DNA from: Streptomyces lycii | GTDB lineage: Bacteria; Actinomycetota; Actinomycetes; Streptomycetales; Streptomycetaceae | Direction of reading: 5' to 3' | Assembly: GCF_009735685.1 (NCBI RefSeq) | Contig: NZ_WHPN01000262.1 | Location: forward strand, 1 to 53,630 | Length of the DNA stretch: 53,630 bases | Part shown: positions 3,531 to 36,262 of the stretch, in pieces | Layout of the letters: each line of letters starts with the position of its first letter | Numbering within the stretch: the first letter of the stretch is position 1 | The notes under the pieces: generated by a model | The model's database searches: none | What the model was told of the DNA's origin: nothing | What the model saw: the letters and a program-made list of their open reading frames with translations, nothing else | Made by a program: the position numbers and the translations under genes

Positions 3531-3562
3531 ACTCAGTCACTCAGTCACTCAGTCACTCAGTC
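3531..3562. repeat. 8-bp tandem repeat ACTCAGTC x4 that includes the stop codon of the CE15 gene
   Basis: Four perfect 8-base copies occur. The last copy (3555-3562) contains the TGA (minus strand, 3557-3559) of the esterase gene, so the array is a reiteration of the gene's own 3' end outward from the stop. Confidence 0.9.
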
Positions 3563-4819
3563 AGTGAGCGTCGGCGTCTGCCAGTTCCTCCACTCGGCGA
3601 GGTTGCCGGCCTTCTTGCCGGAGATGCGGAACTGGCCCGGAGCGGTGCCGGAGCCCAGCATGAACTTCTGGATGCTCTGCGTTATCGGGCCCCGCCACTC
3701 GGAGCGGTTGGCACAGTGGGTGCCGTCCTGGACGTCGGACCAGTAGGTGATGTTCTCGCCCGCGCCGAGCGCCTTGTAGATCTCCGCGCCGCCGAGCGCC
3801 GCCACGCTGCCGGACTTGGCGCCCAGCCAGTCGATGTGCGGGTTGTCCATGATGAGCAGGCCGCGCGGCGCGATCATGCCGACGATCTCATGGGTGTCCA
3901 CCGGCAGCCCGGCGGGGTTGCCCGTGTACGAGCCGAACGGGTCGCCCAGCCAGGGCTGCTCCCCGTAGGCGCTGCTCAGCGGCTGGGCGCCGCTCTCCGA
4001 GGCGATCGAACGGAAGGCACCGACACCGCCGCTGCCCGACTCGATCGGCATGGTCAGGGCGACGCGCTGGTCGAAGGCGCCGGCCACGAACGCGCCCTTG
4101 CCGTACCGCGAGCAGCCCGTGACGCCGGTCCCTTCGGCGCTGAGCACGCTGCCGCCCGACTGCTCGATGACGTCGATGATCCGGCTCACGCCCCAGGCCC
4201 AGGCCATGAGGAGTCCGGTGTCGCTGCTGCCGCCGTAGATGCTGTAGTAGGCGCCCTGCTTGTTGTTGCGGGGCGTGCCCTCCTTGCCCACCGCGAACGG
4301 GTCGTAGCTGATGACGGCGGCGCCGGCGGCCTTGATGGCGGCCGTGTCGGCGCCGAATCCGCCGTAGACGATGACGGCCGGGAAGGGGCCGGAGCCGCTC
4401 GGCAGGTCGACCGACGCCGAGAAGCCGGCGCTCTTGCCCTGGTCGCTGACGTTCACCGAGATGCTGCTGCTGGAGACGGAGCCGGTGACGCTCTCCGGCT
4501 TGTCGGGCTTGTTCCCGTACACGGAGCCCTCGGCCAGCTCCTTGATCTCGGCCCGGCGGCAGCGCCAGTCGGACTTGGCGGAGACGCGCGAACCGTCCGC
4601 CTTCGTGAACGGGTCCGGCAGCCGGGAGTTCGAGGTGGAGCCCGGCGAGCCGACCTCGCAGTCGGCGCCGTCGTGCTCGTCGGCGGGGGCGAGCTGAACG
4701 GCCGCTCCGGCGGCGCCGGTGGTGTCGGCCTGAGCGGTGAACGTGGTGACCGTCAGGCTGGCCGCCGCCACGAAGACCGTGGCGACCCAGACCCGGGGCC
4801 GGAATCGATGAAAGCGCAT
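3557..4819 (-). CDS. Secreted CE15 glucuronoyl (4-O-methyl-glucuronate) methylesterase
   Basis: The 420-aa protein has a Sec signal peptide (MRFHRFRPRVWVATVFVAAA..., probable cleavage near AQA-D). The CE15 signature GCSRYGKG is at residues 235-242 with nucleophile Ser237. Glu260 (PIESGSGG) and His368 (DGTHCA) fit the other triad positions; the Ser-Glu spacing of 23 residues matches characterised bacterial glucuronoyl esterases. CE15 enzymes cut the ester between lignin and the 4-O-methyl-glucuronic acid side chains of xylan, outside the cell. The ATG has a GGAGGT ribosome site. A promoter and a CebR-like box lie upstream (4961-5028). Confidence 0.9.
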   Translation of the reverse strand: MRFHRFRPRVWVATVFVAAASLTVTTFTAQADTTGAAGAAVQLAPADEHDGADCEVGSPGSTSNSRLPDPFTKADGSRVSAKSDWRCRRAEIKELAEGSVYGNKPDKPESVTGSVSSSSISVNVSDQGKSAGFSASVDLPSGSGPFPAVIVYGGFGADTAAIKAAGAAVISYDPFAVGKEGTPRNNKQGAYYSIYGGSSDTGLLMAWAWGVSRIIDVIEQSGGSVLSAEGTGVTGCSRYGKGAFVAGAFDQRVALTMPIESGSGGVGAFRSIASESGAQPLSSAYGEQPWLGDPFGSYTGNPAGLPVDTHEIVGMIAPRGLLIMDNPHIDWLGAKSGSVAALGGAEIYKALGAGENITYWSDVQDGTHCANRSEWRGPITQSIQKFMLGSGTAPGQFRISGKKAGNLAEWRNWQTPTLTD

Positions 4820-4960
4820 GTGGGGACCTCCATAGGGAGGCGCGCAGCCGAATGCGGTGGCCCCCGCCTCACGGCATGAGGTCACATGTTTTCCGGTGCA
4901 CGCCGGATGGCGGATGTGCGCCGGACCTTGATGTCATCGAAGCTGCCCCCAGACCTCAAA

Positions 4961-5028
4961 CCGGTCCAGTGACCGGCACGTTACAAGGCGGCAATGGAAC
5001 ACACAAGACCGCTTTGGAATCGCTCCCA
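4961..5028 (-). promoter_or_regulatory. Promoter region of the CE15 gene with CebR-like box and TSS-proximal dyad
   Basis: Reading leftward: TGGAATCGCTCCCA (plus strand, 5015-5028) matches 12 of 14 bases of the CebR operator TGGGAGCGCTCCCA known from Streptomyces cellulose utilisation. Next come a -35 TTGTGT (5001-5006) and a -10 TAACGT (4978-4983) with a 17-base spacer. Then CCGGTC-N4-GACCGG, a perfect dyad at 4961-4976, overlaps the expected start of transcription. The leader to the ATG would be about 150 bases. The rest of the 4820-5161 gap holds no gene. Confidence 0.5.
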
Positions 5029-5106
5029 CGGCAGGAGCCGCGCCCGCCCGGGACGCCGGACCGGACGCAACCCGGGTGGCTGAAGAACGAGTTGACGGGC
5101 GGTCGA

Positions 5107-5160
5107 TTGACAAGCATCTCGCCACCCACCACCATCATTCCACTAACTAACTAGCTAAAG
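5107..5160 (+). promoter_or_regulatory. Putative promoter/operator of the GntR-ABC operon
   Basis: TTGACA at 5107-5112 is a consensus -35. No clean -10 follows at 17-18 bases; CATCAT (5133-5138) would need a 20-base spacer. Just before the start lies an unusual AT-rich stretch of four CTAA/CTAG units (5143-5158), containing the palindrome TAGCTA. YtrA-type GntR regulators are usually autoregulated from sites beside their own start, so this is a candidate operator. Confidence 0.4.
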
Positions 5161-5161
5161 G

Positions 5162-5605
5162 GTGGTGAAGGAGATCGAGTTCCGCATCGACAGACGCAGC
5201 GGGACCGCCGCCTACCAGCAGATCGTCCTGCAGACCAAGCAGGCGCTGCGGCTCGGTGTCCTGCTTCCCGGCGACCGGCTGCCGACGGCCAAGGAGGTCG
5301 CGGAGACCTGCGCGGTCAACCCCAACACGACCCTCAAGGCGTACCGGGAGCTGGAGCGGGAGGGGCTGGTCGAACCGCGCCCGGGCCTGGGGACGTTCGT
5401 ACGCCGGTCACTGGCCAGGCCGCAGACCGCCGCCGGCGCCCCGCTGCGCGGCGAGCTGGCGGCGTGGATGGACCGGGCCCGCGCGGCGGGACTGGAGCGC
5501 GACGACGTGACCGCGCTGGTCGCGTCGGTCATGGAGGAGCGGTACGCCGGCACCACGGCTGCCGCCGGAGACAGTCACAGCGGTGAAGGCAGGGAGCACA
5601 CGTGA
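5162..5605 (+). CDS. GntR family regulator, YtrA subfamily
   Basis: The 147-aa protein has a wHTH domain in residues 1-80 (RSGTAAYQQIVLQTKQALRLG, LPTAKEVAETCAVNPNTTLKAYRELEREGLVEPRPGLGTFV) and a short helical tail without a large effector domain, which defines the YtrA subfamily. These repress the ABC transporter genes that follow them and are typically relieved by cell-envelope-active compounds. It starts GTG GTG AAG; either GTG could be used and no ribosome site is obvious. The ATPase gene overlaps its stop by 4 bases. Confidence 0.88.
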   Translation: MVKEIEFRIDRRSGTAAYQQIVLQTKQALRLGVLLPGDRLPTAKEVAETCAVNPNTTLKAYRELEREGLVEPRPGLGTFVRRSLARPQTAAGAPLRGELAAWMDRARAAGLERDDVTALVASVMEERYAGTTAAAGDSHSGEGREHT

Positions 5606-6543
5606 GCACGGTCATCGACAACGGGGGGACAGCGGGAACGTCCGCGATCGAGGCGTACGGCCTGGGGAAGCGGTACCGCCGTGGCTGGGCGCTCCAGGAC
5701 TGCACGTTCCGGCTGCCGGCCGGGCGGATCTGCGGGCTCGTCGGCCCGAACGGCTCCGGCAAGACCACGCTGATGGGACTGGTGACACATCTGCTCAAGC
5801 CGACGACCGGCAGCGTCCGGGTCTTCGGCGCGCTCCCCGGCTCCGAGGAGGCCCGCCGGCGCACCGCCTTCCTCGCCCAGGAGAAGCCGCTGTTCCGCCG
5901 GTTCACCGTCGCCGAGACGCTGCGGCTGGGCCGCGAGCTGAACCCGCGCTGGGAGCAGCAGACCGCTGAGGACATCGTCCGCGCCGGTGACATTCCCCTC
6001 GGCGCGCGGATCGGCGCCCTCTCCGGCGGCCAGCGCACCCGGGTCGCCTTCGCCCTCGCCTTCGGCCGGCGCCCCGACCTGCTGGTGCTCGACGAGCCGA
6101 TGTCCGACCTCGACCCGCTCGTACGGCACGAACTCACGTCCGTCCTGATGGCCGAGGCCGCCGAGCACGGCACCACCGTGCTGATGTCCTCCCACCACCT
6201 CACGGACCTGGAGAACAGCTGCGACTACCTCCTCGTCATCGCCTCCGGCGGCGTCCGCCTGGCCGGTGAGGTCGACGAAATCCTCACCGCGCACACCCTG
6301 CTCACCGGCGCCCGCACCGGCCGGGGCGGTCCGCCCCGCCTCGACCGGCACACGGTCGTCGAGTCCCGGGTCAGCGGCCGGCAGGTCACCGCACTGGTAC
6401 GGCCCGACGGCCCCGTCGCCGGCGACTGGCAGGCCGACAGCCCCAACCTCGAAGAGGTCCTCCTCGCCTACCTCCGCTCCCCCGGCACCCCACCCCTGGT
6501 CAGCCCCAGCGCCCAGGCCGACCCGAAGGCGGCAGCAGCATGA
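5602..6543 (+). CDS. ABC transporter ATP-binding protein (ABC-2 type)
   Basis: This is a 313-aa cytoplasmic ATPase. Walker A GPNGSGKTT is at residues 48-56, the signature LSGGQRTRVAFALAFG follows, then Walker B LLVLDEPMSDLDP and the switch His in MSSHHLTDLE. The C-terminal ~90 residues form the extra domain common in drug or bacteriocin exporters. It starts with GTG inside GTGA of the GntR gene and ends in ATGA shared with the permease, so the three genes are translationally coupled. It powers export by the following membrane protein; the substrate is unknown. Confidence 0.92.
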   Translation: MSTVIDNGGTAGTSAIEAYGLGKRYRRGWALQDCTFRLPAGRICGLVGPNGSGKTTLMGLVTHLLKPTTGSVRVFGALPGSEEARRRTAFLAQEKPLFRRFTVAETLRLGRELNPRWEQQTAEDIVRAGDIPLGARIGALSGGQRTRVAFALAFGRRPDLLVLDEPMSDLDPLVRHELTSVLMAEAAEHGTTVLMSSHHLTDLENSCDYLLVIASGGVRLAGEVDEILTAHTLLTGARTGRGGPPRLDRHTVVESRVSGRQVTALVRPDGPVAGDWQADSPNLEEVLLAYLRSPGTPPLVSPSAQADPKAAAA

Positions 6544-7529
6544 GCAGTACGGCCACCGCGTCCGCCCCGGCGCCCACGACCGCCCGCGGCGGCCCGCGGC
6601 TGCGCGGACTGGCCTGGCTGGTCTGGCGCCAGCACCGGGCCGCGTTCCGCACCGGGATCGTCCTCACCGTCCTCTGCGCCGCCTGGTTCGCGTACCGGCG
6701 CTGGGCCATGCTCGACTTCCTCCGCGGCGCCGGCTGGCCCGAGGTGCCGTACGCGGACTACATGGACGGCTTCGTCCCGTACATGTCCCGGCTGATGGAG
6801 AGCGCCACCACGCTCGGTGTCTTCGTGCCCGCGCTGGTGGGTGTCTTCGTGGGGGCCCCGCTGTTCGCCCACGACCTGGAACACGGCACCGGCAAGCTCG
6901 TCCTGTCGCAGACGGTCGGCCGCGGCCGGTGGGTCGCCACGAAACTCGGCATGCCCCTGCTCCTGGCGGCCGTCTGCACGGCGCTGCTCTCCGCCGTGTA
7001 CGGCTGGTGGCTGGCCCCGGTCGCCGAGGCGGACAGCACCCTCTACTGGGAGACGGGCGCCGCGGCGGGGCCGGTGCCGGTGGCGCTCACCCTCTTCACC
7101 CTGACCGCCGGGGCGGCGATCGGCATGGTGCTGCGCCGGACACTGCTGTCCATGGTCGTCTCCTTCGGTTTCGCCACGGCGGTGCAGTACGCCTGGAGCA
7201 GCTTCTGGACGGACCTCGGCGATCCGGTGTCGGTGACCAGCCGGGCGGGCGTGGACGCCTTCCCCGACATCCCCGCGGCCGCGAACCAGTTGGAGCAGTG
7301 GTACCTCACCGGCTCCGGGGAGCGCATCGGCTGGGGCTCCTGCGCCGAGGCGACCGAGAAGGCGACCGACGCGTGCCTGGCGGAGAAGGACGTCGTCGGC
7401 TGGGCCGTGGACTACCTGCCCGCGTCGGAGCTGACCCCCGTGCTGTGGACGGGCTCGGCGATCCTGTTCGCGCTCACGGCCGCCGTCGCGGCGTTCGTCG
7501 TCCTGTGGGGCCGCAAGCGGCTGTTCTGA
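6540..7529 (+). CDS. ABC transporter permease
   Basis: The 329-aa integral membrane protein has an N-terminal cytoplasmic part and about six hydrophobic segments: GIVLTVLCAAWFAY, TLGVFVPALVGVFVGAPLFA, LLLAAVCTALLSAVYGWWL, VPVALTLFTLTAGAAIGMVL, LLSMVVSFGFATAVQ and a last one before GRKRLF. The DLEHGTGKLVLSQTVGRGRWV loop is typical of ABC-2 permeases that pair with YtrA-linked ATPases. The final codons and the stop are repeated three more times downstream (7511-7612). Confidence 0.88.
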   Translation: MSSTATASAPAPTTARGGPRLRGLAWLVWRQHRAAFRTGIVLTVLCAAWFAYRRWAMLDFLRGAGWPEVPYADYMDGFVPYMSRLMESATTLGVFVPALVGVFVGAPLFAHDLEHGTGKLVLSQTVGRGRWVATKLGMPLLLAAVCTALLSAVYGWWLAPVAEADSTLYWETGAAAGPVPVALTLFTLTAGAAIGMVLRRTLLSMVVSFGFATAVQYAWSSFWTDLGDPVSVTSRAGVDAFPDIPAAANQLEQWYLTGSGERIGWGSCAEATEKATDACLAEKDVVGWAVDYLPASELTPVLWTGSAILFALTAAVAAFVVLWGRKRLF

Positions 7530-7612
7530 CGGCCGCGAACGGCTGTTCGTGAGGCGGCGGCCGCGAGCGGCTGTTCGCGACGGGACCGCAGACGGTTGTT
7601 CGCGACGGGGCC
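7511..7612. repeat. Degenerate tandem array starting in the last codons of the permease gene
   Basis: Copy 1 (7511-7532, CCGCAAGCGGCTGTTCTGAC...) is the gene's own end including TGA. Copies follow at 7533, 7561 and 7586 with periods of 22, 28 and 25 bases; in them the stop is changed to GTGA or CGCGA. Confidence 0.8.
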
Positions 7613-7653
7613 GCCGGCCGGGCACGCGGGTGCGCGATCCGGCCGGCGGTTCG

Positions 7654-7698
7654 TCAGCGGGTGAACGGTCAGCGGATGAACGGTCAGCGGTCGATCAA
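7654..7698. repeat. 15-bp tandem array containing the stop codon of the 7684-9165 gene
   Basis: Units at 7654-7668 and 7669-7683 (TCAGCGGRTGAACGG) repeat the end of the leftward gene (7684-7698). Because the period is 15, the stop TGA recurs in frame at 7684, 7669 and 7654. Confidence 0.85.
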
Positions 7699-9165
7699 GG
7701 ACTCGAAGCCGGCCCGTACGTCACCCTTCGACGCCTCGACCTGGATGTCCGAGGGCGGGCCGATGTCGGCGGAGATGATCGTCTCGTACTCCAGGACCGC
7801 GGGGCAGCTGGTGCCGCTGATCTGCACCGTGCGGTCGGCGACCTTCTTGCCGGTGCGCAGCTCGTACACCTGCACCGGTATGTCGATCTTGTGGAACGTC
7901 ACGTCCTGGACGCCGCCGATGGCGAGCTTGTGCTCGTACGGGCAGGTCCGCACGGCGTCCCCGTCCTCGGCCTCGCCCGCGCACACCACCAGCACGGCCT
8001 TGGCCGGGTCGGTGGTCCGCCAGCCGCCGGGCAGTTGGTCCGTGTACTCGGCGTTGCCGAAGAACATCGCGCGGTTCGTTCCCTTGCCGTAGGCCTTGGC
8101 CCCGCTGTACTTGGCCGGCTTGTCGCAGTATTCCGGCCGGTGGCCGGTCCCGCCCTCCAGCAGCTCGGTGACGTTCTCCAGCTCGATGGTCTGCGTCGCC
8201 TCCCTGGCGCCCTTGCGGGCGGCGTCCGCGCGGCTGTCGTCGGGATACTGGTCGAGCAACTGCTCGTAGCGCGCCCGGGCCTTCTTCCACTCCTCGGCCA
8301 CCATGTGGTCGTCGGCGCATTCGACGAGCGCTCCGGGCGCGGCCTGCCGCACGGTCTCCTCCGACCGGTCCAGCGCCGGGTGGCCGGGCGTGTGGTCCCG
8401 GAGCCAGTCGGTGACCTTCGCGGTGGGGCAGGGATTCCTGGTGGGCAGGCTGTCGAGGAAGCCGTTCAGGACCACGTCCACGGTCTTCTCGTTGCCCGGC
8501 TGCGCGCGGACCTCGGCGAGCAGGTCGAACCCGGCCCGCAGCGCGTCGGTGTCCCCGACCAGCCCGGACGTCAGCTTGGCGGCGGCCCGCTCCAGCCGCT
8601 CGCAGGTCTCGGCCATCCGCTCGCCCCGCGCGGCCAGCGGTGCGTCGGCGAGGCGGTTCCCGAACCAGGTCTTCTCCTGGGCGCTCACCACTCCGGCGCA
8701 GTCGCCGCTCGCCCGCGCCCCGGTCATGTCGCCGTCGATCACGGACGTGTCGTACCGCAGGAGTGCGGTGGCCAGCAGCACCGGCACCGTGACGCCCAGC
8801 GCGACGACGCGTTCCCGGCGGACCGCCAACCGCCGGCCGCGCCCGCCCGCGAGGAACCAGCCGTGCCCGACACCGGCCGCCCACCACAGCAGGAGCAGCA
8901 CCTCGCACCACGGTTCGGCGTACGAGAGCAGCACGAAGACGAGCACGACGGTGCCCGCGAGCGCGGCGGCGGCCCACCGGTACCGCCGCATCAGCAGATA
9001 ACCGGCGCCGAGGAACGAGGCGTTGCCGAGCGCTACGGCCAGCGGGTCGTGCGGACGGGGCGGCGGCGCGGGCGGTGCGGGCGGTACGGGCGGCATCGGC
9101 GGTACGGGCGGTGGTGCGGGCTGCGGCTCGGGCTGCGACATGGCGTACGCCCGGTCGTCGTCCAT
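7684..9165 (-). CDS. Pro-rich N-terminus membrane protein with TPR-like soluble domain, unknown function
   Basis: This 493-aa protein starts with a Pro/Val/Met-rich cytoplasmic tail (residues ~10-38). Three or four hydrophobic helices follow between ~45 and 130 (LAVALGNASFLGAGYLLM, AAAALAGTVVLVFVLLSYA, CEVLLLLWWAAGVGHGWFLA, VVALGVTVPVLLATALL). The long outer domain contains a TPR-like repeat (EEWKKARARYEQLLDQYPDDSRADAARKGA). The C-terminal ~150 residues carry several cysteines that could form disulfides (CDKPAKY, VVCAGE, RTCPYEH, GTSCPAVLEYE). I do not recognise a named family. The ATG has a GGGGGAG ribosome site 8-9 bases upstream. Its stop lies in a 15-base tandem array. Confidence 0.75.
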   Translation of the reverse strand: MDDDRAYAMSQPEPQPAPPPVPPMPPVPPAPPAPPPRPHDPLAVALGNASFLGAGYLLMRRYRWAAAALAGTVVLVFVLLSYAEPWCEVLLLLWWAAGVGHGWFLAGGRGRRLAVRRERVVALGVTVPVLLATALLRYDTSVIDGDMTGARASGDCAGVVSAQEKTWFGNRLADAPLAARGERMAETCERLERAAAKLTSGLVGDTDALRAGFDLLAEVRAQPGNEKTVDVVLNGFLDSLPTRNPCPTAKVTDWLRDHTPGHPALDRSEETVRQAAPGALVECADDHMVAEEWKKARARYEQLLDQYPDDSRADAARKGAREATQTIELENVTELLEGGTGHRPEYCDKPAKYSGAKAYGKGTNRAMFFGNAEYTDQLPGGWRTTDPAKAVLVVCAGEAEDGDAVRTCPYEHKLAIGGVQDVTFHKIDIPVQVYELRTGKKVADRTVQISGTSCPAVLEYETIISADIGPPSDIQVEASKGDVRAGFESLIDR

Positions 9166-9457
9166 CCCTTTCTCCCCCTGTTACGGAATGCGCTTGCGCG
9201 ATCCCCCATTGTCGCCCGCGGCGCGCGGAAAGGGCCAGACGCGGAGGAGACCGTGACGCGTGCGGTGCCGCGATGCTTCCGTTGACCGACGGGCCGGCGG
9301 ACCGGCGGGCGCTCCGCACCGAGGACCACCACCGGCCCCGCCACGAAACCCACCGCTCCACGGAAACCGGCCCCGCCACGGAAACCACCGCTGCACAGAG
9401 AACCGCCGGCGCCCGGCCACGGAAACCGCCGCCGCACAGAAGAGAAAGGTGCCCCGC

Positions 9458-14168: not shown

Positions 14169-16718
14169 GTGGATCCGACCCTGCAGGTGCACGAGCCCGA
14201 CCAGCCGTCGGGCGGCGTCGTCGTGCTGCTGCTGGACGAGGACGGGACCGTGCTCCAGTGCCCGTCCGCGGCCTTCGGCCTCACCGGTCGCACCGCCTCC
14301 GAGCTGCGCGGACGCCCGTTCACGGAGCTGGTTCCGGACTCGGACCGGCAACCCGGGCGACGCGGCGGCCCCGGAGAGATGCAGCAGCTGCGGACGGTCC
14401 TGCTGCACCGGGACGGCACCGAGGTTCCGGTCGACGCCGCGATGGTGCCGCTGCCCGACGGCTGCCCGGCCCGCCACGTGGTGTGCCTGAGCCCCGCCCC
14501 GACCGACGACAACCCGCGGCACCCGGCGAAGGACCGGGCGCTGCTCCGAGCGATGTTCGAGCAGAACCACTTCGGCCTGGTGGTCCACGGCACCGACCTG
14601 GGGATCGAGCGCGGCACGCTGAACTCCTGCCTCCCCGGCGGCTTCGTGACCGACCGGCCGCCACCGGGTGCCCGGCTCTCGGACGCCGTCCTGGACGAGG
14701 ACGCCGCGGCGATCGAGGAACAGCTCCGCCGGGTCCTGGAGACCGGCGAGCCGGTGATCGACTGGGAGCAGTCCGCCCGGCCGCGGCGGAATCCGGGTGA
14801 GGAGCGGATGCTGTCGATGTCGGTGTTCCGGCTCCACGACGGGCACGGCCGCGCACTCGGCGTCGCTGCGGTCTACACCGACGTCACCACCGAGCACGCG
14901 GCCCGGCGGCGGCTCCGGCTCCTCCAGGCCGCCGCCGAGCGGCTCGGCCAGAACCTGGACGTCACCGGCAACGCCGAGGAGCTGGCCGAGATCCTCGTAC
15001 CGTCCTTCGCGGACCTGGTGAGCGTGGACCTGTCCGACTCGGTGTTCGAAGGTCAGGAGACCGGCGCGTTCGTCCCCGGGACCCGGCTGCGCCGGATCGC
15101 GGTCGCCTCCGCGGACGGCCGGTGGCCCGCGGAGATCGACCAGCTCGGCGACGTCGTGCGCGCCAGGGAGCAGGAGAGCTTCAACCTCCGCGAGGGTACG
15201 AGCCTGCGGGTGGAGGATCTGGAGTCCTGGCGGGACGAGCTGGACCCGGACGAGGAGCGGCGCCGGCTGCTGTTTCCCGACGGCGCGACCTCGGCGATGT
15301 TCGTGCCGCTGCACGCCCGGGGCGCGGTGCTCGGGGTGATGGGCCTGTGGCGGCGGGGCGAGCGGGCCCGGTTCGCCGAGGACGATGTGTCACTGATCGA
15401 GGAGATCGCCTCCCGGGCCGCCCTGAGCCTGGAGAACGCCCGGCGCTACACGACCGAGCTGCGCACCGTGGAGATGCTGCAACGCAGCCTGCTGCCACCG
15501 GCCGGGGTGGACCTGAGCGCGGCGGAGACCGCGGGGACGTACATCCCGGCGAGCACGGCGGCGGGCATGGGCGGCAGCTGGTACGACGTCATCCCGCTGT
15601 CCTCGGCCCGGGTCGCGTTCGTCATCGGTGACGTCGTCGGCCACGGCCTGGGGGCGACGGCCACCATGGGCCGGCTGCGGACCGCGGTGCAGACCCTCGC
15701 CGACCTGGACATGGCCCCCGAGGAGCTGCTCACCCACCTGGACGACCTCGTCATCCGGCTGGGCTCCACCGAGCCGCAGCCCGGCAACGGCGGGGTGCTC
15801 GGCACGACCTGTCTGTACTGCGTGTACGACCCGGTCACCGGACGGTGCAGCATGGCCAGCGCGGGCCACCCGCCGCCCCTGCTGACGTGCCCCGGCGGGC
15901 CCACCCACTACGCGGACCTGAAACCGGGACCCGCCCTGGGTTCGGGCGGCATGCCGTTCGAGCCGCTCGACCTGCACCTCACACCCGGGAGCGTACTGGC
16001 GTTCTACACCAACAAGCTGGTGGTCCACGGCGGCCGGCCGGCCGGAGCGGAGGAGTCCGGCGGGGGCCGGGCGGGCGCGGAGTCCGGCGAAGGCCGGGAG
16101 AGGGCGGAGTCCGGCGGGGGCCGGGCGGGGGACGCGCCGGAGGAGCCCGACGGCTGCGGCGAGCAGCCGTTGCGGCCGCTCGTCGAGGGCGTGGCCACCG
16201 CGGTGGAGCGCGGCGGCAGCCCCGCCGAGATCGGGCGGGCGGCGCTCGACCAGGTGCTGACCGAGGTGCCGGCCGACGACGTGGCCCTGCTGGTGGCCCG
16301 GGTCCGGGCGCTGGACGAGGGGTCCACCGCAGCCTGGCGGTTCACCGACGACCCCGCCGTCGTCTCCGAGGCGCGCGAACTCGTCATCAACCAGCTGACC
16401 ACCTGGGGCCTGGACCAGCTGACGTTCACCACCGAACTGATCGTCAGCGAGCTGATCACCAACGCGATCCGCTACGCCGGGGCTCCCATCGGCCTCCGTT
16501 TGATCAAGGACCGGACGCTGATCTGCGAGGTCTCCGACCCCAGCCAGACGCAGCCGCACCTGCGCCGGGCCCGGCTCACCGACGAGGGCGGGCGCGGCCT
16601 GTTCCTGATCGCCCAGCTGGCCCACCGGTGGGGCAGCCGGTACACGCACTCCGGCAAGACCATCTGGACCGAACAACCCCTGAACGGCGTCCCGGAAGTG
16701 CCGCTGGACCTGTTCTGA
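14169..16718 (+). CDS. PAS-GAF-SpoIIE phosphatase-HATPase multidomain signalling protein
   Basis: 849 aa. A PAS domain (about 12-120) and a second PAS-like part (to ~235) come first. A GAF domain (about 247-425) follows, then a SpoIIE/RsbU-type PP2C phosphatase (435-640; GDVVGHG at ~487). The C-terminal GHKL ATPase domain (about 715-849) has an N-box in ELIVSELITNAIRYA and a G box DEGGRGLFLIAQLA. Such proteins switch sigma factors through anti-sigma antagonists and anti-sigma kinase activity. The usual GGDWYD metal motif reads GGSWYD here (Ser470). A 27-base repeat encodes the linker between phosphatase and kinase. Start GTG follows GGAGCGAGG. Confidence 0.88.
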   Translation: MDPTLQVHEPDQPSGGVVVLLLDEDGTVLQCPSAAFGLTGRTASELRGRPFTELVPDSDRQPGRRGGPGEMQQLRTVLLHRDGTEVPVDAAMVPLPDGCPARHVVCLSPAPTDDNPRHPAKDRALLRAMFEQNHFGLVVHGTDLGIERGTLNSCLPGGFVTDRPPPGARLSDAVLDEDAAAIEEQLRRVLETGEPVIDWEQSARPRRNPGEERMLSMSVFRLHDGHGRALGVAAVYTDVTTEHAARRRLRLLQAAAERLGQNLDVTGNAEELAEILVPSFADLVSVDLSDSVFEGQETGAFVPGTRLRRIAVASADGRWPAEIDQLGDVVRAREQESFNLREGTSLRVEDLESWRDELDPDEERRRLLFPDGATSAMFVPLHARGAVLGVMGLWRRGERARFAEDDVSLIEEIASRAALSLENARRYTTELRTVEMLQRSLLPPAGVDLSAAETAGTYIPASTAAGMGGSWYDVIPLSSARVAFVIGDVVGHGLGATATMGRLRTAVQTLADLDMAPEELLTHLDDLVIRLGSTEPQPGNGGVLGTTCLYCVYDPVTGRCSMASAGHPPPLLTCPGGPTHYADLKPGPALGSGGMPFEPLDLHLTPGSVLAFYTNKLVVHGGRPAGAEESGGGRAGAESGEGRERAESGGGRAGDAPEEPDGCGEQPLRPLVEGVATAVERGGSPAEIGRAALDQVLTEVPADDVALLVARVRALDEGSTAAWRFTDDPAVVSEARELVINQLTTWGLDQLTFTTELIVSELITNAIRYAGAPIGLRLIKDRTLICEVSDPSQTQPHLRRARLTDEGGRGLFLIAQLAHRWGSRYTHSGKTIWTEQPLNGVPEVPLDLF
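16053..16133. repeat. Intragenic 27-bp repeat x3 in the SpoIIE-HATPase linker
   Basis: Three tandem 27-base units starting GAGTCCGGCG encode ESGGGRAGA, ESGEGRERA and ESGGGRAGD (residues about 629-655). The period keeps the frame. Confidence 0.88.
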
Positions 16719-16925
16719 GCCCCGCTGTCCGGTCGCCCGGGCGCGCCTTCCCGGCCCCGCTGTCCGGTCGCCCGGGCGTGCATTCCGAGCCCCGCTGCCC
16801 GGTGGCCCGGGGGCGCCTTCCGTGCCCTGCTGCCCCGGCTGCCCGGCTGCACCCGATGGCCCGCTGCCCGGTGGCCCGCTTGCGCCCGATGGCCCGTTGC
16901 CCGGCTGCCCCGCTGCCGGAGCGCG
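16719..16925. repeat. 35-bp degenerate tandem array beginning at the stop codon of the SpoIIE gene
   Basis: Units starting GCCCCGCTGYCCGG lie at 16719, 16754, 16789, 16824 and 16859 (period 35), with a sixth near 16892. The first follows the TGA directly. The array fills the space up to the convergent PadR gene. Confidence 0.8.
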
Positions 16926-18140: not shown

Positions 18141-18245
18141 ACGGGATCGCGCCGGATCGCGCCGGATCGGGCCGGGCCGGGGGCGGGATCGGGCGAGGCC
18201 GGGTCGGGGCCGGGCCGGTCAGATCGGTTCGAGTCGGGTCCGGGT

Positions 18246-18283
18246 CCGGACCCCGGCCCAGGAGCCCCGGGGCCGGGGTCCGG
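18246..18283 (-). terminator. Hairpin terminator after the TetR gene
   Basis: Perfect 14-base arms (CCGGACCCCGGCCC and its complement) with a 10-base loop lie 17 bases beyond the TetR stop. The interval 18140-18245 between the two hairpins is low-complexity GC-rich repeats without a gene. Confidence 0.65.
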
Positions 18284-18302
18284 TCCGGTCCGGTCCGGTT
18301 CA
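18282..18302. repeat. 5-bp repeat GTCCG abutting the TetR stop
   Basis: GTCCG repeats run into GTTCAGG, where TCA (18300-18302) is the complement of the TetR stop codon. Confidence 0.7.
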
Positions 18303-25676: not shown

Positions 25677-25920
25677 GCTCCCCGCGAGGTTCCCCCGCCC
25701 CGGCTTGTCTCGCCTCCCGCGAGGTTTCCCTGCCCGGGGCTTCCCCCCGCCCCGAGGCTTCCCCCGCCTCGGGTCCCGCCCGCCGCCGGGTTTCACCCGA
25801 CCCGGGCGCACGCCCGGGTTTCGCCGCCCCGGGGTTTCACTCGGCGCCAGGTAGCGCTCGCCACAGGGCTTCACCCGCCCCGGCTCTCGCCCGCCACCAC
25901 CCCGGGTTTCATGCCCCGCC
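25677..25920. repeat. Degenerate ~20-25 bp array ending in the SET gene stop
   Basis: A unit of the type CGRGGYTTCMCCCGCCCC recurs about nine times. The last one (CCCGGGTTTCATGCCCCGCC) contains TCA at 25909-25911, the stop of the leftward SET gene. Confidence 0.7.
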
Positions 25921-27052: not shown

Positions 27053-27187
27053 GAGCCCCCCGTACCGCACGCGCCCGCCCCCGGAGCACCCGTACCGCAA
27101 GCCCCCGTGCCGCAAGCCCCCGTGCCGTACGCACCCGTGCCGTGAACGCCAGGGCGGTAAGCGTCGGGGCCGTAAGCGTCAGGGCCG
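27053..27187. repeat. 15-bp tandem array, nine copies, containing the lipase stop codon
   Basis: Units at 27053, 27068, 27083, 27098, 27113, 27128, 27143, 27158 and 27173 decay gradually leftward. The unit 27173-27187 (TAAGCGTCAGGGCCG) includes the complement of the gene's final CGG CCC TGA. The next (27158-27172) differs by one base that turns TGA into CGA. Confidence 0.88.
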
Positions 27188-28528
27188 GTGGAACCCGACC
27201 TCCGGGTTCTCCGGTGTCGGGCCGTCCAGCAGCGGCTGCGGCACGCCCCGCAGGTGCTGGTCGAAGAAGGCCGCGACATAGTCGCGGGTGATCTGCTGCG
27301 AACGCTCCCCGGACAGCGACGCCTCCGGGTCGGTGATGCCCAGCTGGTCGCCGAACACGGGGAAGTCCGTGAACGTCATGTGGCCGGAGCCGGTGACGGT
27401 CAGCCAGCGCTTCCAGCCGTCCAGCCGCGCCCAGTCGCGCGGCCAGCTCTCGTCCCCGGTGTCCGGGCCGTGCGACGCGGCGGTGCCGAGCAGCATGAAG
27501 GGACGGCCGTCGAGCCCGGTGGCCGGGACCGGGTCGAAGAAGGTCCCGTCCATGTTGACGCCCGCCCGCACCCGGTCGTCGGCGGCCATGGTGGACGCGG
27601 TGCTGTTGCCGCCGATGGAGTGCCCGGCCATGCCGATCCGCCGCCGGTCGATCATGCGGGCGTGCGGCCAGGGCGAACGATGACCCGTCAGCCGGTCGAG
27701 GACGAAGGAGAGGTCCTCGGCACGGCCGCGGGCGACCGCGTCGTAGCCGGTCTGCTCGGCCTTCTCGCAGGCGACGCAGGTCAGCGTCCGGCCGCCGGGA
27801 AACGCCGTGCCGAAGGACTCGTACGCGTGGTCGACCGTCGCGACGACATAGCCGCGGCTCGCCAGGTCCTCGGCGAGGGTCGTCAGGGTGGCACGGTTCA
27901 GCGAGAAGCCGGGCGAGAGGACGACCAGGGGGTGTTGGCCGGGCGCGGGGCGGGCGCCCGGGCGGGCGTGGGTGCGGGTGCCGGCGAGGGACTGGGCGGG
28001 TACCGAGTCCGCCAGGTCGTTGGCCTCCAGCAGGAGCCGGGCCTCCTCGGCCGTCATGTACGGCGCCGGGGCACCGCCGCTGCCCGGGCGCGCCGGGTGA
28101 TGCACGGTCACCATGAGTTCCCGGGGGCCCGACCCCGGCACCCAGGGGTCGCGGCGGTCGGTGTCGGTGAGGTGCAGGGTGTCGTGGCCGACCGCGTACG
28201 GGCCGGTCGGCGCGGGCAGCCGGAGGCGGGCGCTGCGCCGGTCCGGGGCGTCGTCGCGCACGGCGGTGACCGCGGCGTCCGGCCACGCGGACACGGGCGC
28301 GGGCAGGTGCGCGGTTCCGCGCGCGGGCGCCGGCACGGGCGGGGCCGGAGCCCCGGCCCCGGAGGCAGCGGACGCGGACCCGGACACAGCGGATCCCGGC
28401 GCGAACGCGGCCGCGGCGGGAACCGGCGCGGACACGGGCGCGGCGACGGCACCTGCCGCTCCCAGGGCGGGCAGTGACACGGTCAGTGCGAGCACGGTGG
28501 CTGCGGCAACACAGCGGCTCTTGTCCAT
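27179..28528 (-). CDS. Secreted alpha/beta hydrolase (PAF-acetylhydrolase/lipase type)
   Basis: 449 aa with a signal peptide (KSRCVAAATVLALTVSLPAL) and an Ala/Pro-rich segment to ~residue 90. The nucleophile elbow GHSIGG has Ser304; HPLVVLSPGFSLNRAT supplies the oxyanion region and TVTGSGHMTFTDFP carries the likely catalytic His. This pattern is that of the platelet-activating-factor acetylhydrolase isoform II/polyester-lipase family, acting extracellularly on lipid or polyester esters. The ATG has no ribosome site but TAACGT (minus strand, 28537-28542) lies eight bases upstream, suggesting a leaderless message. Confidence 0.83.
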   Translation of the reverse strand: MDKSRCVAAATVLALTVSLPALGAAGAVAAPVSAPVPAAAAFAPGSAVSGSASAASGAGAPAPPVPAPARGTAHLPAPVSAWPDAAVTAVRDDAPDRRSARLRLPAPTGPYAVGHDTLHLTDTDRRDPWVPGSGPRELMVTVHHPARPGSGGAPAPYMTAEEARLLLEANDLADSVPAQSLAGTRTHARPGARPAPGQHPLVVLSPGFSLNRATLTTLAEDLASRGYVVATVDHAYESFGTAFPGGRTLTCVACEKAEQTGYDAVARGRAEDLSFVLDRLTGHRSPWPHARMIDRRRIGMAGHSIGGNSTASTMAADDRVRAGVNMDGTFFDPVPATGLDGRPFMLLGTAASHGPDTGDESWPRDWARLDGWKRWLTVTGSGHMTFTDFPVFGDQLGITDPEASLSGERSQQITRDYVAAFFDQHLRGVPQPLLDGPTPENPEVGFHRP

Positions 28529-28747
28529 GTCCGGGAACGTTAGCCAGCGGGGCCGGGCGGCCGCGTCGCTTCCCGGTCGGAGCCGGAGATCCGCCGCGCA
28601 GCCGATGCCCTGCCGCCCCCTCCTCCCGGCGAGTGATCCGCGACCCGGACCCCGGCAGCCCCGCCCGGCCCCGGTGACCGCGCTGACGTGCCGCTTCACG
28701 GCCCGCCCGGCCGCCCGCGGACATCAGGGCCGGTGGAGACTGGCGGC

Positions 28748-30154
28748 ATGGAACCGACCTGTGACGCGGCAACCGCCCACGCCTGGACCGCTCTCGGCGG
28801 CCGCGGGGACCCGGCGGCGCACGTGGCCCACGACGAGGTGCGCGGCGCGCTGCCCGCCCGGCTCCCGGTGCGGGAACTGGCGCGGGCGACCGTCGGCGCG
28901 TGCTCCCTGGCGGCGGCGGAGCTGCTGGCCCTGCGCAACGGCGGGCCCGTCCCGCCGGTACGGGTGCACGAAGGAGCGGTGGCCACGGCCTTCGTCAGCG
29001 AACGGCACCTGCGGATCGACGGCCGCGCCCCGCGGTCGTTCGCGCCGCTGTCCGGCTTCTGGCGGGCGTCCGACGGCTGGGTGCGCACCCACGCCAACTA
29101 CCCGCACCACCGGGCCCGGCTGCTCGCCGCCCTGGGCATTCCGGACCACGGCGGCGGGAGCGCCGCGGACCGGGGGCTGACGGAGCGGTTCGCGCAGGAG
29201 CTGGCCTCCCGCCCCGCGTGGACAGTGCAGGAGACCGTCCACGCGGCGGGCGGCCTGGCGGTGGCGGTCGCCCCGGCCCCCGGTCCGGCGGTTGCCGCCG
29301 GGACGCGGCCCCCGCTCGTCGAGCGGCTGCCCGTCCCGCCCGCCGCAGGGCCCGCCGGCTCCCGGACGCTGCGTCCCGCGCCGTTGCCGGCCGAGGGGGT
29401 GCGGGTCCTCGACCTGACCCGGGTCATCGCCGGGCCCGTCGCCACCCGCACGCTCGCGCTGCTCGGCGCCGACGTGCTGCGCGTCGACTCCCCGCGGCTG
29501 CCCGAGGACCCGGACGCCCACGCCGACACCGGCGCGGGCAAGCGTTCGACGCTGCTGGACCTCGCGGCCCCGGCGGGGCGGCGCGCGTTCGAGGCGCTGC
29601 TGGACTCGGCCGATGTCGTCGTCACCGGTTACCGGCCGGGCTCCCTGGATCCGCTCGGCCTGTCCCCGGAGGAGCTGCTCGAACGGCGCCCGGATCTGGT
29701 CGTCGCGCAGCTCCGCGCCTGGGACCCGGCGGGTCCGTGGGCGGACCGGCGGGGCTTCGACAGCCTCGTGCAGGCCGCGACCGGCATCGCCGCGATCGAG
29801 GCCGCCCCGGACGGCACCCCGGGCGTGCTGCCCGCGCAGGCCCTGGACCACGGCACGGGGTATCTGCTCGCGGGGGCGGTGCTGCGCGCCCTGAGCGACC
29901 GTCACTCCGGCGGCGGCGGGCACCTGCTGCGGCTGTCCCTGGCGGGCACCGCGTCCTGGCTGCTGCACGGCATCACCCCGGCGCCGCCGCCGGCCGGGGT
30001 CGAGCCCTGTTCCGCCGGGCCGTGGCTCGCCCGGACGGCCTCGCCGTACGGAATCCTGCGCCACGCCCTCCCGCCGGTGCACTACCAGGGCGCCCCCGCC
30101 AACTGGGCCCGTCCGCCCTCCCGCTGGGGCACGGACGAGCCGCGCTGGCTCTGA
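28748..30154 (+). CDS. CoA transferase family III (CaiB/BaiF) with extra N-terminal half
   Basis: 468 aa. The C-terminal half (about 215-460) is a family III CoA transferase: VRVLDLTRVIAGPVATRTLALLGADVLRVDSP, GKRSTLLDLAAPAGRRAFEALLDSADVVVTGYRPGSLDPLGLSPEEL, then WADRRGFDSLVQAATG with Asp338 at the position of the conserved catalytic Asp. The first ~200 residues look like a degenerate copy of the same fold (FWRASDGWVRTHANYPHHRARLLAALG). The enzyme would move CoA between carboxylic acids. The stop lies in the first copy of a repeat array. Confidence 0.85.
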   Translation: MEPTCDAATAHAWTALGGRGDPAAHVAHDEVRGALPARLPVRELARATVGACSLAAAELLALRNGGPVPPVRVHEGAVATAFVSERHLRIDGRAPRSFAPLSGFWRASDGWVRTHANYPHHRARLLAALGIPDHGGGSAADRGLTERFAQELASRPAWTVQETVHAAGGLAVAVAPAPGPAVAAGTRPPLVERLPVPPAAGPAGSRTLRPAPLPAEGVRVLDLTRVIAGPVATRTLALLGADVLRVDSPRLPEDPDAHADTGAGKRSTLLDLAAPAGRRAFEALLDSADVVVTGYRPGSLDPLGLSPEELLERRPDLVVAQLRAWDPAGPWADRRGFDSLVQAATGIAAIEAAPDGTPGVLPAQALDHGTGYLLAGAVLRALSDRHSGGGGHLLRLSLAGTASWLLHGITPAPPPAGVEPCSAGPWLARTASPYGILRHALPPVHYQGAPANWARPPSRWGTDEPRWL

Positions 30155-30261
30155 CGGCCGGTGCTGCCCGGGCTCCCGCTGCGGGGTGCTGCCGGCTCCG
30201 GCGGCCGGTGCTGCCGGGCTCCCGCGGCCGGTGCTGCCCGGCTCCGGCGGCCGGTGTTCAG
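30147..30261. repeat. ~22-bp array bridging the stop codons of two convergent genes
   Basis: Copies GGCTCTGACGGCCGGTGCTG (30147), GGCTCCGGCGGCCGGTGCTG (30194), GGCTCCCGCGGCCGGTGCTG (30217) and GGCTCCGGCGGCCGGTGTTC (30240). Copy 1 contains the TGA of the CoA transferase (30152-30154). Copy 4 contains the stop of the NB-ARC gene (30258-30260). Confidence 0.88.
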
Positions 30262-33092: not shown

Positions 33093-33123
33093 AGGACTTC
33101 CCCTCCCGCGCTGGTAATCGACC

Positions 33124-33140
33124 GGACACGAAGAGTGTCC
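33124..33140. promoter_or_regulatory. Inverted repeat GGACAC-N5-GTGTCC before the NB-ARC gene
   Basis: A perfect 6-base dyad lies 32 bases upstream of the NB-ARC start. It is either an operator, perhaps for autoregulation, or a leader hairpin. Confidence 0.45.
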
Positions 33141-33173
33141 ATCCCCGGTCAGGAGAGTAGTGCATATTCCACC

Positions 33174-33432
33174 CTGACCGGGTTTGCACGGGAAACGGGA
33201 CGCCGTCGTACGGGCGGCCGCATGCTGGGCGGGCACCGGCCGACGGCATTGCGTGGTCCGCACACGCGGGGGAATGCCCGGCCGACCGGTGACCGGGGCC
33301 CGGGGAGGCGGCGTGGCAGCGTCGCGGGCCCCGGCCGCCGGCAGCGTCCGGGCCGCGGGGGACCGGCCCGTCCGCTGCCGTCAGCGGTGCGAACGGGCTG
33401 GCGGCTGACCGGGTTTGCACGGAAAGCGGGAC
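33174..33432. repeat. Pair of 28-bp direct repeats 231 bases apart
   Basis: CTGACCGGGTTTGCACGG occurs at 33174 and at 33405, followed by near-identical sequence to AGCGGGAC/AACGGGAC (28 bases, few mismatches). It is not tandem, unlike other repeats here. The remainder of the 33093-33717 gap has no gene, and 33600-33716 holds degenerate GCGGTTCGCCGCC units. Confidence 0.7.
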
Positions 33433-34232: not shown

Positions 34233-34311
34233 CGGCGGCGCGCCCGTCCCCGTCCGGCGGCGCGCCCGTCCCCGTCCGGCGGCGCGCCCGTCCTCCTCCG
34301 GCGGCGCGCCC
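34233..34311. repeat. 22-bp tandem repeat, 3.6 copies
   Basis: Units starting CGGCGGCGCGCCCGTCC lie at 34233, 34255, 34277 and 34299, between the methyltransferase 3' end and the PPOX start. Confidence 0.88.
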
Positions 34312-34346
34312 GCGTCACCGCGCAGGCCGCCGCCCCGCGCGCAGGC

Positions 34347-35834
34347 TCAGACCGCGGCCAGCTCCAGAAGGGCGACCGCGCCCGCGCGGTGCACCCCCAG
34401 GACCGTCAGACCGGCCGTCCGGGCGAGATCCGTCAGCGCGGGGACGTCGCGTTCCCGGCCGCCGAGGTACATGAGCATCCACATGTCCATCTCGGTGCTC
34501 GGCTCCTCGCCCTCGGCCCCGATGCGCTCCGCGACGAAGACCGAACCGCCCCGGCCCGCCGCCTCCGCGCAGCGGCGCAGGATCCGTACCGCGTCCCGGT
34601 CGTTCCAGTCGTGCAGCACCGACGACAGCAGATACCCGCCCGCACCCGCCGGGACCTCCTCGAAGAAGTCGCCCGCCACGGCGTCCGCGCGGTCCGCCAG
34701 CCCGGCCTCGGCCAGCTTCCTCCGGGCCCCCTCCACGGGGCCGGGCAGGTCGAACACGGTGCCCCGCAGGCCGGGATGGGCGCGCAGCACCGCGCCGAGC
34801 AGGGCGCCGCTGCCGCCGCCCACGTCGACGAGGTGCCCGGTCCGCCCCCAGTCGTACGCCGTCGCGACCAGCTGCGCCATCTCGCCGGTGAAGAACGCCA
34901 TCGCCGCGTCGAACGACGCCGAGCGCTCCGGGTCGGCGGCCAGGTCCTCCCAGAAGGTCCGGCCGAAGTACGCGCTGAAAGCCGTCTCGCCCGTACGGAT
35001 CGTGTGCGGCATCTCGACGACGGACAGCACGGCGCGCCCGACGGCGTTCGTGACGTCCAGCCGGGCGCGCACCATGTCCGGATGGTCGTCACGCAGGGCC
35101 TCGCCCTGCTCGGTGAGGGCGTACCGGTCGGGATCCGTGCCGACCCGGTCGAGGACACCGGCGTACGCCAGATGCCGCAGCATCCGGGCGAGGGCGTCGG
35201 GGTGCGCTTCCACGGCGGCGGCGAGCGCCGGCGCGGTGTCGGTGCCGGCCGCGATGTGGTCGGCCAGGCGGAGCGTCGCGGCGACGCGCACCGTCATGGG
35301 GGTGAGGATGTCCGCGGTCTCCCAGATCCCGGAGCCCCAGATCCCGGGGGTGCGGCCCTTGGACTCCGGCTCCGCCCTGTCCGGTACGGCTTCGCCCGGG
35401 GTGGCGGGGTCCGGGGCTGCGGGGTCGGGAGTCGCGGGGTCGGGGGATGCGGGATCGGGGGATGCGGGATCGGGGGTTGCGGGATCGGGGGTTGCCGGGT
35501 CCGGGGTCGCCGGGGTGGGGGGTGCGGGGTCCGGGGCCGCGGGATCGGGGGCCGCCGGTTCCGGAGTCCCCGGGGCCGGGACTGCCGGATCCGGGGTCGT
35601 CGGGCCCGGGACTGCCGGATCCGGGACTGCCGGGTCCGGGGCGTCTTCGTCCCGGGCCGCTTCGTCACCGGCTGCCGTTCGGGCCGGTATCGCCCGGTCC
35701 CCGGCGGCTCGGGCCGGGGGCGGTTCGGGCCGGGACCCTCGCCCGGCAGTTGATCCGGCCCCGGCTCCCCGGACCGGTATCGCTCCGTCCCCCTCCGAGG
35801 GCTCGTTCCCCGGCGCCTGCTGGGTTTCCGTCAC
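34347..35834 (-). CDS. SAM-dependent O-methyltransferase with long PDPAx repeat N-terminus
   Basis: 495 aa. The C-terminal ~330 residues form a plant-type O-methyltransferase: dimerisation helices (DILTPMTVRVAATLRLADHIAAG), SAM loop LVDVGGGSGALLGAVL (~335-350), acidic loop FDLPGPVEGA and general base His408 in SSVLHDWNDRDAVRILRR. It would methylate a hydroxyl of a small aromatic or polyketide-like compound. Residues ~66-146 are sixteen pentapeptides of the PDPAT/PDPAV type, encoded by a 15-base repeat (35397-35639). The GTG at 35834 has GGGGAG upstream, so the repeat is translated if that start is right. Confidence 0.85.
   Translation of the reverse strand: MTETQQAPGNEPSEGDGAIPVRGAGAGSTAGRGSRPEPPPARAAGDRAIPARTAAGDEAARDEDAPDPAVPDPAVPGPTTPDPAVPAPGTPEPAAPDPAAPDPAPPTPATPDPATPDPATPDPASPDPASPDPATPDPAAPDPATPGEAVPDRAEPESKGRTPGIWGSGIWETADILTPMTVRVAATLRLADHIAAGTDTAPALAAAVEAHPDALARMLRHLAYAGVLDRVGTDPDRYALTEQGEALRDDHPDMVRARLDVTNAVGRAVLSVVEMPHTIRTGETAFSAYFGRTFWEDLAADPERSASFDAAMAFFTGEMAQLVATAYDWGRTGHLVDVGGGSGALLGAVLRAHPGLRGTVFDLPGPVEGARRKLAEAGLADRADAVAGDFFEEVPAGAGGYLLSSVLHDWNDRDAVRILRRCAEAAGRGGSVFVAERIGAEGEEPSTEMDMWMLMYLGGRERDVPALTDLARTAGLTVLGVHRAGAVALLELAAV
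35397..35639. repeat. Intragenic 15-bp repeat encoding PDPAx
   Basis: About 16 in-frame units of the type GCGGGATCGGGGGTT on the plus strand (gene on minus). A proline at every fifth residue predicts an extended, rod-like tether. Confidence 0.88.
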
Positions 35835-35984
35835 CGCGCGCTCCCCTCGCTGGTCGATGTGGAGCCAAGCTAACCGGGCTGCCGGTGACCACAAGCCCGG
35901 GCGGACGGGCGGATCCGGCGGCGTACGCCAATGTGCGTAGGCGGAGACGAGGAGCGGTGGGTCCCAACCCCCGGGGGCGGGCCC

Positions 35985-36262
35985 GGTTCTCAGGAGCCGC
36001 GAGCCCCGGCCCCAGGGGCGGCGGCCCCGATCTCAGGGGCGGCGGGACCCGGCTCCAGAGCGGCGGGCCCGGTCTCAGGAGCCGCGGACCCCCGGCTCCA
36101 GGACGGCGGGCTCCGGGCTCAAGGGCGGCGGGCCCCGCTCTCAGGAGCGGCGGAGCCCCGGCTCCAGGACGGCGGGCTCCGGGCTCAAGGGCGGCGGGCC
36201 CCGCTCTCAGGGGCGGCGAGTCCCAACCCCGGCGGCGGGGCCCGGTTCTCAGGGGCGGCGGC
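35985..36262. repeat. Degenerate ~22-bp array with a 66-bp higher-order unit, ending in the cupin stop
   Basis: CTCAGGRGCSGCG units recur about ten times. A 56-base segment is identical at 36090-36145 and 36156-36211. The last unit (TTCTCAGGGGCGGCGG) contains the cupin stop (complement at 36249-36251). The array occupies most of the 35835-36248 gap. Confidence 0.85.

Follow-up and report, generated by a model that had tools for sequence, protein, structure and literature searches.

The tandem arrays downstream of genes in Streptomyces lycii are most probably ordinary minisatellites, formed by local tandem duplication throughout the genome and surviving mainly downstream of genes through selection, with stop codons contacted as often as under random placement. 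This is directly supported by the absence of a stop excess in 997 kb of the genome, by strong avoidance of starts, by units divisible by three in genes alone, and by a high array load. The first-pass annotation of the window (the whole stretch analysed, 53,630 nt of contig NZ_WHPN01000262.1, assembly GCF_009735685.1) had described arrays at about ten genes as anchored on stop codons through outward duplication of gene ends. Such stop-linked copying is set aside here, and a measured selective filter is offered instead.

The own-genome sample comprised 997 kb (13%) of the 7.65-Mb genome. Five of 61 own-genome stretches were dropped (four shorter than 2,000 bases, one all N), as was one of 60 congener stretches (more than 10% N), and two of 80 named loci were removed by the G+C or N filter, leaving 78, all around CE15 genes; the ends of CE15 genes were inspected in 18 of the original 80. 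Four extra stretches entered the density figures only. Gene boundaries came from a codon-score caller written for the analysis, with no annotation used, and placement tests considered gaps of 60-600 bp and TRF arrays scoring at least 50. The head-to-tail units fit the definition of minisatellites (about 6-100 bp), with a median unit of 19 bp and a median of 2.8 copies in gap arrays. When these gaps were simulated three times with a Markov model, 5, 12 and 7 arrays were found against 272 real ones at a score of at least 50, and none against 131 at a score of at least 80; since simulated gaps are almost free of arrays, the real ones are not chance sequence.

Within the window, seven of the ten named arrays include the stop codon and two abut it, as originally described, but the TRF array at the SET-protein gene ends 13 bp short, although related units can be followed by eye to the stop (Table 1). 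Match percentages in the listed arrays are mostly 70-95, so the units are imperfect. Their length and sequence vary from gene to gene, which bears out the earlier statement that units are unrelated between genes and that the process is local and recurrent instead of reflecting a dispersed element. In agreement, the one region searched against the own genome, the permease region at 7000-7700, returned itself and two weak matches, 51 and 57 bases long with 78-79% identity.

Table 1. Arrays and associated genes in the window. Extent is given relative to the final stop-codon base; all arrays with an entry under Basis were delineated by TRF.
Feature	Position	Strand	Gene	Extent	Basis and remarks
Second 8-bp array, beyond the CE15 array	3466-3523
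8-bp array over CE15 stop	3530..3563	-	3557-4885 (-), PF22244	-6..+27	TRF; 4.2 copies, 100% match
~25-bp units over ABC permease stop	7507..7614	+	6540-7529 (+)	-22..+85	TRF; 50-bp consensus of two ~25-bp units
15-bp array over stop	7653..7690	-	7684-9165 (-)	-6..+31	TRF
9-bp coding repeat inside gene	9051..9113	-	7684-9165 (-)		TRF and protein comparison
35-bp array over SpoIIE-protein stop	16713..16832	+	14001-16718 (+), PF07228	-5..+114	TRF
5-bp array abutting TetR stop	18277..18299	-	18300-19157 (-), PF00440	+1..+23	TRF; score only 46
Diffuse ~17-bp array near SET-protein stop	25690..25895	-	25909-27279 (-), PF00856		TRF
15-bp array over lipase-like gene stop	27139..27187	-	27179-28699 (-), PF03403	-8..+40	TRF
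CoA transferase gene	28688-30154	+	PF02515
23/46-bp array filling the convergent gap of CoA transferase and NB-ARC genes	30147..30256	.		-7..+102 (CoA transferase), +2..+111 (NB-ARC)	TRF
NB-ARC gene	30258-33263	-	PF00931
66-bp unit array (sub-units ~22 bp) at cupin-like gene stop	36040..36261	-	36249-36647 (-)	-12..+209	TRF; cupin match below Pfam cut-off

Contact with stops is at the level of random placement. The window itself has 7 contacts against 6.9±2.0 expected (score of at least 50, gaps of 60-600 bp), and the test of array and stop coincidence, which the first-pass annotation had itself named as able to refute its reading, gave no enrichment when run with TRF on the 997 kb sample: 30 contacts were counted against 33.3±5.0 by random placement. 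With overhangs of 6, 12, 20 and 30 bp allowed, the counts at a score of at least 50 were 14 against 13.7, 24 against 23.4, 30 against 33.3, and 33 against 43.7. Besides these uniform-centre and limited-overhang nulls, a start-excluded null, lacking the 80 bp upstream of starts, gave 30 against 35.3±5.3. The result was left unchanged by stricter gene calls (24 against 26.0 and 17 against 14.5), and in a test independent of TRF the 16-mer that ends in the stop recurred close by downstream in just 4.4% of 386 genes. Stop anchoring in this genome was rejected on these placement nulls, the stricter gene calls and the 16-mer test together. Because contact stays at the random level, the arrays are likely to be common copying slips, kept where the harm would be least.

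It might still be supposed that tandem duplication running outward is favoured at gene ends, perhaps because polymerase pauses where the end resembles a terminator, so that the stop region seeds most 3' arrays. This reading is quite improbable, but it draws on the stop-including arrays of the window and on two genes in particular. The ends of the CE15 and permease genes are conserved in relatives that lack these arrays, so the gene end is the likely seed at both, and the permease units are likely to be copies of the conserved gene end; to that extent the outward duplication first described probably holds locally. A weak stop excess also appears outside the genome. In co-directional gaps of 33 congeners, 17 contacts were found against 9.7±2.7 under the simplest null (P 0.010), and later nulls gave 15 against 11.4 to 21 against 18.1 (P 0.13-0.22); the 78 loci of named relatives gave 8-12 against 4.3-8.1 expected (P 0.007-0.12; 23-35 arrays). 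Taken together, congeners and named relatives show an excess of about 1.2- to 1.5-fold, not significant when pooled with the own genome. Against gene-end seeding as the general rule stand the lack of any stop excess in this array-rich genome, the climb of array coverage with distance from the stop, and the 16-mer copies, which rise from the 4.4% at gene ends to 15-20% at +24..+48; where the 16-mer ends 48 bp past the stop, the share is 20.0% (335 genes).

For window positions 3400-9300, no near-identical sister-strain DNA was found among 389 congeners scored of 392, the best reaching 82-83% on parts, and the nearest genome by rpoB stands at 93% (265 scored of 392). A copy-number (VNTR) difference was seen for one 9-bp coding unit: a 99% identical protein lacks three residues at the repeat inside the 7684-9165 gene. 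At the CE15 stop, a 16-bp duplication distinguishes two other species. Both differences, like the conserved gene ends of relatives without the arrays, count in favour of ordinary tandem duplication.

The distribution of arrays around genes takes the form of a step. Coverage is about 2% in genes, 12% just past the stop and 34-38% beyond 75 bp, and in the sampled parts about a third of the DNA 60-150 bases past gene ends is tandem repeat. A peak at the stop was looked for in the coverage profile of the own-genome sample and none was found; array edges, however, are slightly commoner in the first 15-bp bin after the stop (26) than in later bins to 90 bp (13-25 each), which counts against the preferred reading. 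Starts are strongly avoided, with 2 contacts against 14.0±3.6 expected in the 997 kb. In divergent gaps, DNA lying 150-250 bp from both starts has 9.8% coverage, against 28.1% for co-directional DNA at equal start distance, which indicates that distance from promoters is not the whole explanation; a mutational or transcriptional bias toward 3' flanks may contribute.

Convergent gaps have the highest coverage of any gap orientation (31.6%), as would be expected if selection retained arrays because they terminate transcription or insulate neighbouring genes from each other. Furthermore, folding relative to shuffles is slightly stronger in 99 near-stop arrays (mean z -0.91) than in 125 array-free flanks (-0.64; P 0.016), and z is -0.82 for near-stop arrays, while the remaining gap arrays have -0.57 and in-gene arrays -0.44. 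The suggested selection for termination draws weak support from this slight folding excess. The effect is nevertheless small, since 19-23% of near-stop arrays have z below -2 against 17% of array-free flanks, and it is symmetric between strands (-0.82, -0.84). Intrinsic terminators are stable gene-strand hairpins with a T-run behind them. Moreover, co-directional 3' flanks whose next start is at least 250 bp away resemble convergent ones, with 13.8, 24.3 and 32.5% covered at <20, 20-60 and 60+ bp from the stop, against 15.4, 26.9 and 38.6%. Retention as terminators or insulators is thus very improbable.

Reading frame also bears on the preferred selective filter. Unit lengths modulo three are distributed 220/13/14 in genes, where 220 of 247 are divisible by three, and 102/91/89 in gaps, where 102 of 282 are. 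Frameshifting arrays are 46 times rarer in genes (0.037/kb) than in gaps (1.72/kb), and in-frame arrays occur at 0.302/kb and 0.975/kb, respectively. The suggested reservoir of C-terminal extensions does not agree with the 27 stop-crossing arrays of the own genome, whose unit lengths modulo three are 7/14/6; as a general role it was rejected, the 21 congener stop-crossing arrays giving 7/7/7. The frame preserved in 220 of the 247 in-gene arrays is also unlike the product of errors, and it counts against the scarcely credible idea that a short-read assembly invented or inflated the repeats. That idea draws on the 430 contigs of the assembly and on the share of arrays in their terminal 150 bp (13.1%, against 6.1% overall, in 21 contigs); however, an assembly broken at arrays would undercount them, and arrays are present in congeners with complete chromosomes too.

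Based on these placements, a model is proposed in which replication slippage would duplicate short segments anywhere in the genome. Selection, more probably than a mutational bias, would shape the map by purging arrays within reading frames or immediately upstream of starts, and arrays would persist downstream of genes, where they are least harmful. When a duplication straddles a stop, the in-gene copy would be held by selection while the outer copies drift, so that the gene end seems to have been copied outward. An array-rich genome could thereby serve as a natural probe of the intergenic DNA that tolerates insertion.

The load itself is high. At a TRF score of at least 80, array density is 32.8 per 100 kb, about three times the median of the 33 sampled congeners (10.0), and the mean length of convergent gaps is 235 bp, compared with 168 bp among congeners, arrays making up 56 of the 67 extra bases. 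It is possible, though doubtful, that this lineage is a duplication mutator, in which tandem duplication of 10-40-bp segments is unusually frequent and has swollen the gene-downstream DNA, the surviving arrays mapping promoter-free DNA genome-wide. Loss of NucS or SbcD as the source of the excess was rejected, both NucS (PF01939) and SbcD (TIGR00619) scoring above cut-off in the own genome and nine others. The RecG match of the own genome, at 638 bits, is below its cut-off of 659.4, as it is in three others of the ten genomes. NucS is described in PMC8228993 as unable to correct indels, and PMC11109965 reports that the indel rate of S. ambofaciens is not considerably affected by NucS loss and that MutS and MutL are absent from these bacteria. 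The roughly threefold excess is a lead on how duplication of 10-40-bp segments is controlled in bacteria reported to lack MutS and MutL.

Among known systems, the arrays are set apart from some and joined to others. MIRUs are also tandem units in gaps and able to run over a neighbouring stop codon, but they constitute one dispersed sequence family. The arrays described here are unrelated between genes and avoid starts, with no single unit family found at many loci among the listed arrays and in the one region searched against the own genome. In the literature searched, no paper was found on stop-anchored arrays or a 3'-side minisatellite bias in Streptomyces. The tandem repeats of archaeal Borgs, as described in PMC9879509, are similarly local, with independently arisen units whose lengths are multiples of three within genes but not between them; Borg units are, however, perfect (free of SNPs), A-enriched and extrachromosomal, whereas those studied here are imperfect, G+C-rich and located on the chromosome or its contigs. 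Closest are the bacterial minisatellites or VNTRs, treated as "satellites" in PMC6749651, which likewise occur both in gaps and within genes, their head-to-tail units measuring about 10-40 bp and being unrelated between loci; the 38 satellites given there for S. coelicolor follow a stricter definition (at least 4 regular repeats) and are not directly comparable with the array counts here. In conclusion, the arrays of S. lycii are best read as minisatellites, and differ in carrying a load that is high for the genus.

A first-pass annotation had proposed that tandem arrays downstream of about ten genes of the window consist of local, mutually unrelated repeats anchored on stop codons through outward duplication of gene ends. 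The repeats were borne out, as was their local and unrelated character: a TRF array lies over the stop codon in seven of the ten genes and against it in two, and at the SET gene it stops 13 bp short. These are true tandem repeats, since Markov-simulated gaps yield far fewer arrays: 272 real gap arrays at a TRF score of at least 50 versus 5, 12 and 7 in three simulations of the same gaps, and 131 at a score of at least 80 versus 0 in all three. The window, with 74.6% G+C, is the entire contig C26 of the source genome, G000 (7,653,333 bases, 430 contigs), taken here to be Streptomyces in the broad sense. Its gene names also held, with Pfam matches for glucuronoyl esterase, SpoIIE, TetR, CoA transferase, NB-ARC, SET and the lipase-like protein; the permease and cupin matches fell below the Pfam cut-off, and a Pfam search with the 7684 gene product found no match.

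Features with coordinates in the window
Feature	Position	Observation
7684 membrane protein gene	7684-9165	
9-bp coding repeat	9051-9113	at the start of the 7684 gene
Two overlapping tRNA-like matches (ARAGORN)	18212-18362	overlie the end of the TetR gene and the array there; look spurious
21-bp repeat	41299-41465	8 copies; competing plus- and minus-strand ORFs

Anchoring on stop codons was not found in G000. In a sample of 997,369 bases (56 stretches, the window among them), with genes called by a codon-score caller trained on G000, each gap array of score at least 50 was put randomly in its own gap of 60-600 bp and allowed to run into a gene by at most 20 bp; 30 stop contacts were observed against 33.3±5.0 expected. 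Other overhangs gave 14 versus 13.7 (6 bp), 24 versus 23.4 (12 bp) and 33 versus 43.7 (30 bp), exclusion of the 80 bp upstream of starts gave 30 versus 35.3±5.3, and stricter gene calls gave 24 versus 26.0±4.6 and 17 versus 14.5±3.2. The window on its own had 7 contacts for 6.9±2.0 expected. Start codons were contacted only twice, against 14.0±3.6 expected. Array edges numbered 26 in the first 15 bp past the stop versus 13-25 per later bin up to 90 bp, a mild surplus of the kind expected if the gene end acts as a barrier. In G000 the array-stop link follows only from which DNA tolerates arrays.

Unit lengths modulo 3 are evenly spread in gap arrays (102, 91, 89), whereas nearly all in-gene units are divisible by three (220, 13, 14). 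Genes hold 46-fold fewer frameshifting arrays per kilobase than gaps do (0.037 versus 1.72) and threefold fewer in-frame ones (0.302 versus 0.975). Tandem duplication everywhere followed by selection fits both the frame and the density data, and we infer a uniform duplication input across the genome.

A positional profile of coverage in G000 was drawn from 267 stop ends, in gaps 150-600 bp long, and from 293 start ends. Arrays cover 2.2% of the DNA 30-15 bp ahead of the gene end and 5.3% of the final 15 bp; past the end, coverage rises through 12.5, 19.6, 25.2, 29.4 and 32.0% in successive 15-bp bins and reaches 34-38% at 75 to 150 bp. Upstream of starts the figures are 1.0% for the nearest 15 bp and 8.4% for 90-105 bp. 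Convergent gaps are covered to 31.6%, co-directional gaps to 18.6% and divergent gaps to 5.2%. With the next start 250 bp or further off, co-directional flanks come near the convergent level at every distance from the stop, a pattern that points to promoter distance as the main variable. Coverage of divergent gaps is lower than this rule alone predicts, with 9.8% at 150-250 bp from both starts versus 28.1% for co-directional DNA equally far from a start. As for termination, near-stop arrays have a slight folding advantage over their shuffles, of equal size on the two strands, and only a small one over arrays elsewhere; because the gain is small and alike on both strands, the case for a terminator role is weak at best.

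A mild excess of stop contacts outside G000 is possible, since the congener and named-locus counts lean that way. Under the simplest null, co-directional gaps of 33 congeners gave 17 contacts versus 9.7±2.7 expected (P 0.010), and convergent gaps 9 versus 10.0; later nulls gave from 15 versus 11.4 to 21 versus 18.1 (P 0.13-0.22). The 78 named loci are not independent, each having been retrieved around a CE15 gene; they gave 8-12 contacts versus 4.3-8.1 (P 0.007-0.12, 23-35 arrays). Congeners and named loci combined stand about 1.2- to 1.5-fold above the null. Pooled with G000, the counts were 61 versus 60.7±6.6 with 20 bp overhang and the 80 bp start exclusion, and 48 versus 40.0±5.3 (P 0.077) at the least favourable setting.

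For two arrays a likely history emerges. A homologous tail was read in 12 of 18 CE15 loci, three of the 12 ending in the same TLTD and one having an array that touches the stop. Among 13 permease loci, five showed a homologous tail of the RKRL type in the frame that was read. All five are array-free at the stop; an unrelated array lies 30 bp downstream in one of them and 121 bp downstream in another. Because relatives keep homologous tails mostly without an array at the stop, these two gene ends are likely older than their arrays, and their seeds. A 16-bp duplication at the CE15 stop codon differs between loci of two other Streptomyces species (L112 versus L109). The 7684 gene product is identical at 489 of 493 aligned positions to a near-identical protein, which lacks three residues in the 9-bp repeat, has one substitution and shares the last residues; the repeat difference is likely a recent unit change, or possibly an assembly difference.

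The array load of G000 is high, at 32.8 arrays of score at least 80 per 100 kb; samples of 20-40 kb from each of 33 congeners have a median of 10.0. Two of these congeners matched the G000 level, on 20 kb; in further 20-kb samples congener G189 was still high (30) and G036 was down to 10 and 10. The window (65.3) has about twice the sample density. The load is patchy, with 70-80 per 100 kb, again at score at least 80, in the G000 stretches L022, L099 and L092 and none in L091 and L200. Arrays have 79% G+C versus 72.6% in array-free gaps. NucS, SbcD and a RecG match are all present in G000. Arrays make up 13.1% of the terminal 150 bp in 21 contigs of G000, versus 6.1% overall; they thus probably break the assembly, and the measured load is likely too low. 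Compared with congeners, G000 has longer convergent gaps (mean 235 bp, se 16, versus 168 bp, se 16; array bases 74 versus 18 per gap), co-directional gaps (231 versus 171 bp; 41 versus 10) and divergent gaps (277 versus 254 bp; 17 versus 9), so that arrays make up most of the extra convergent length and about half of the extra co-directional length. Of lasting interest are this load and the clean filter that it reveals.
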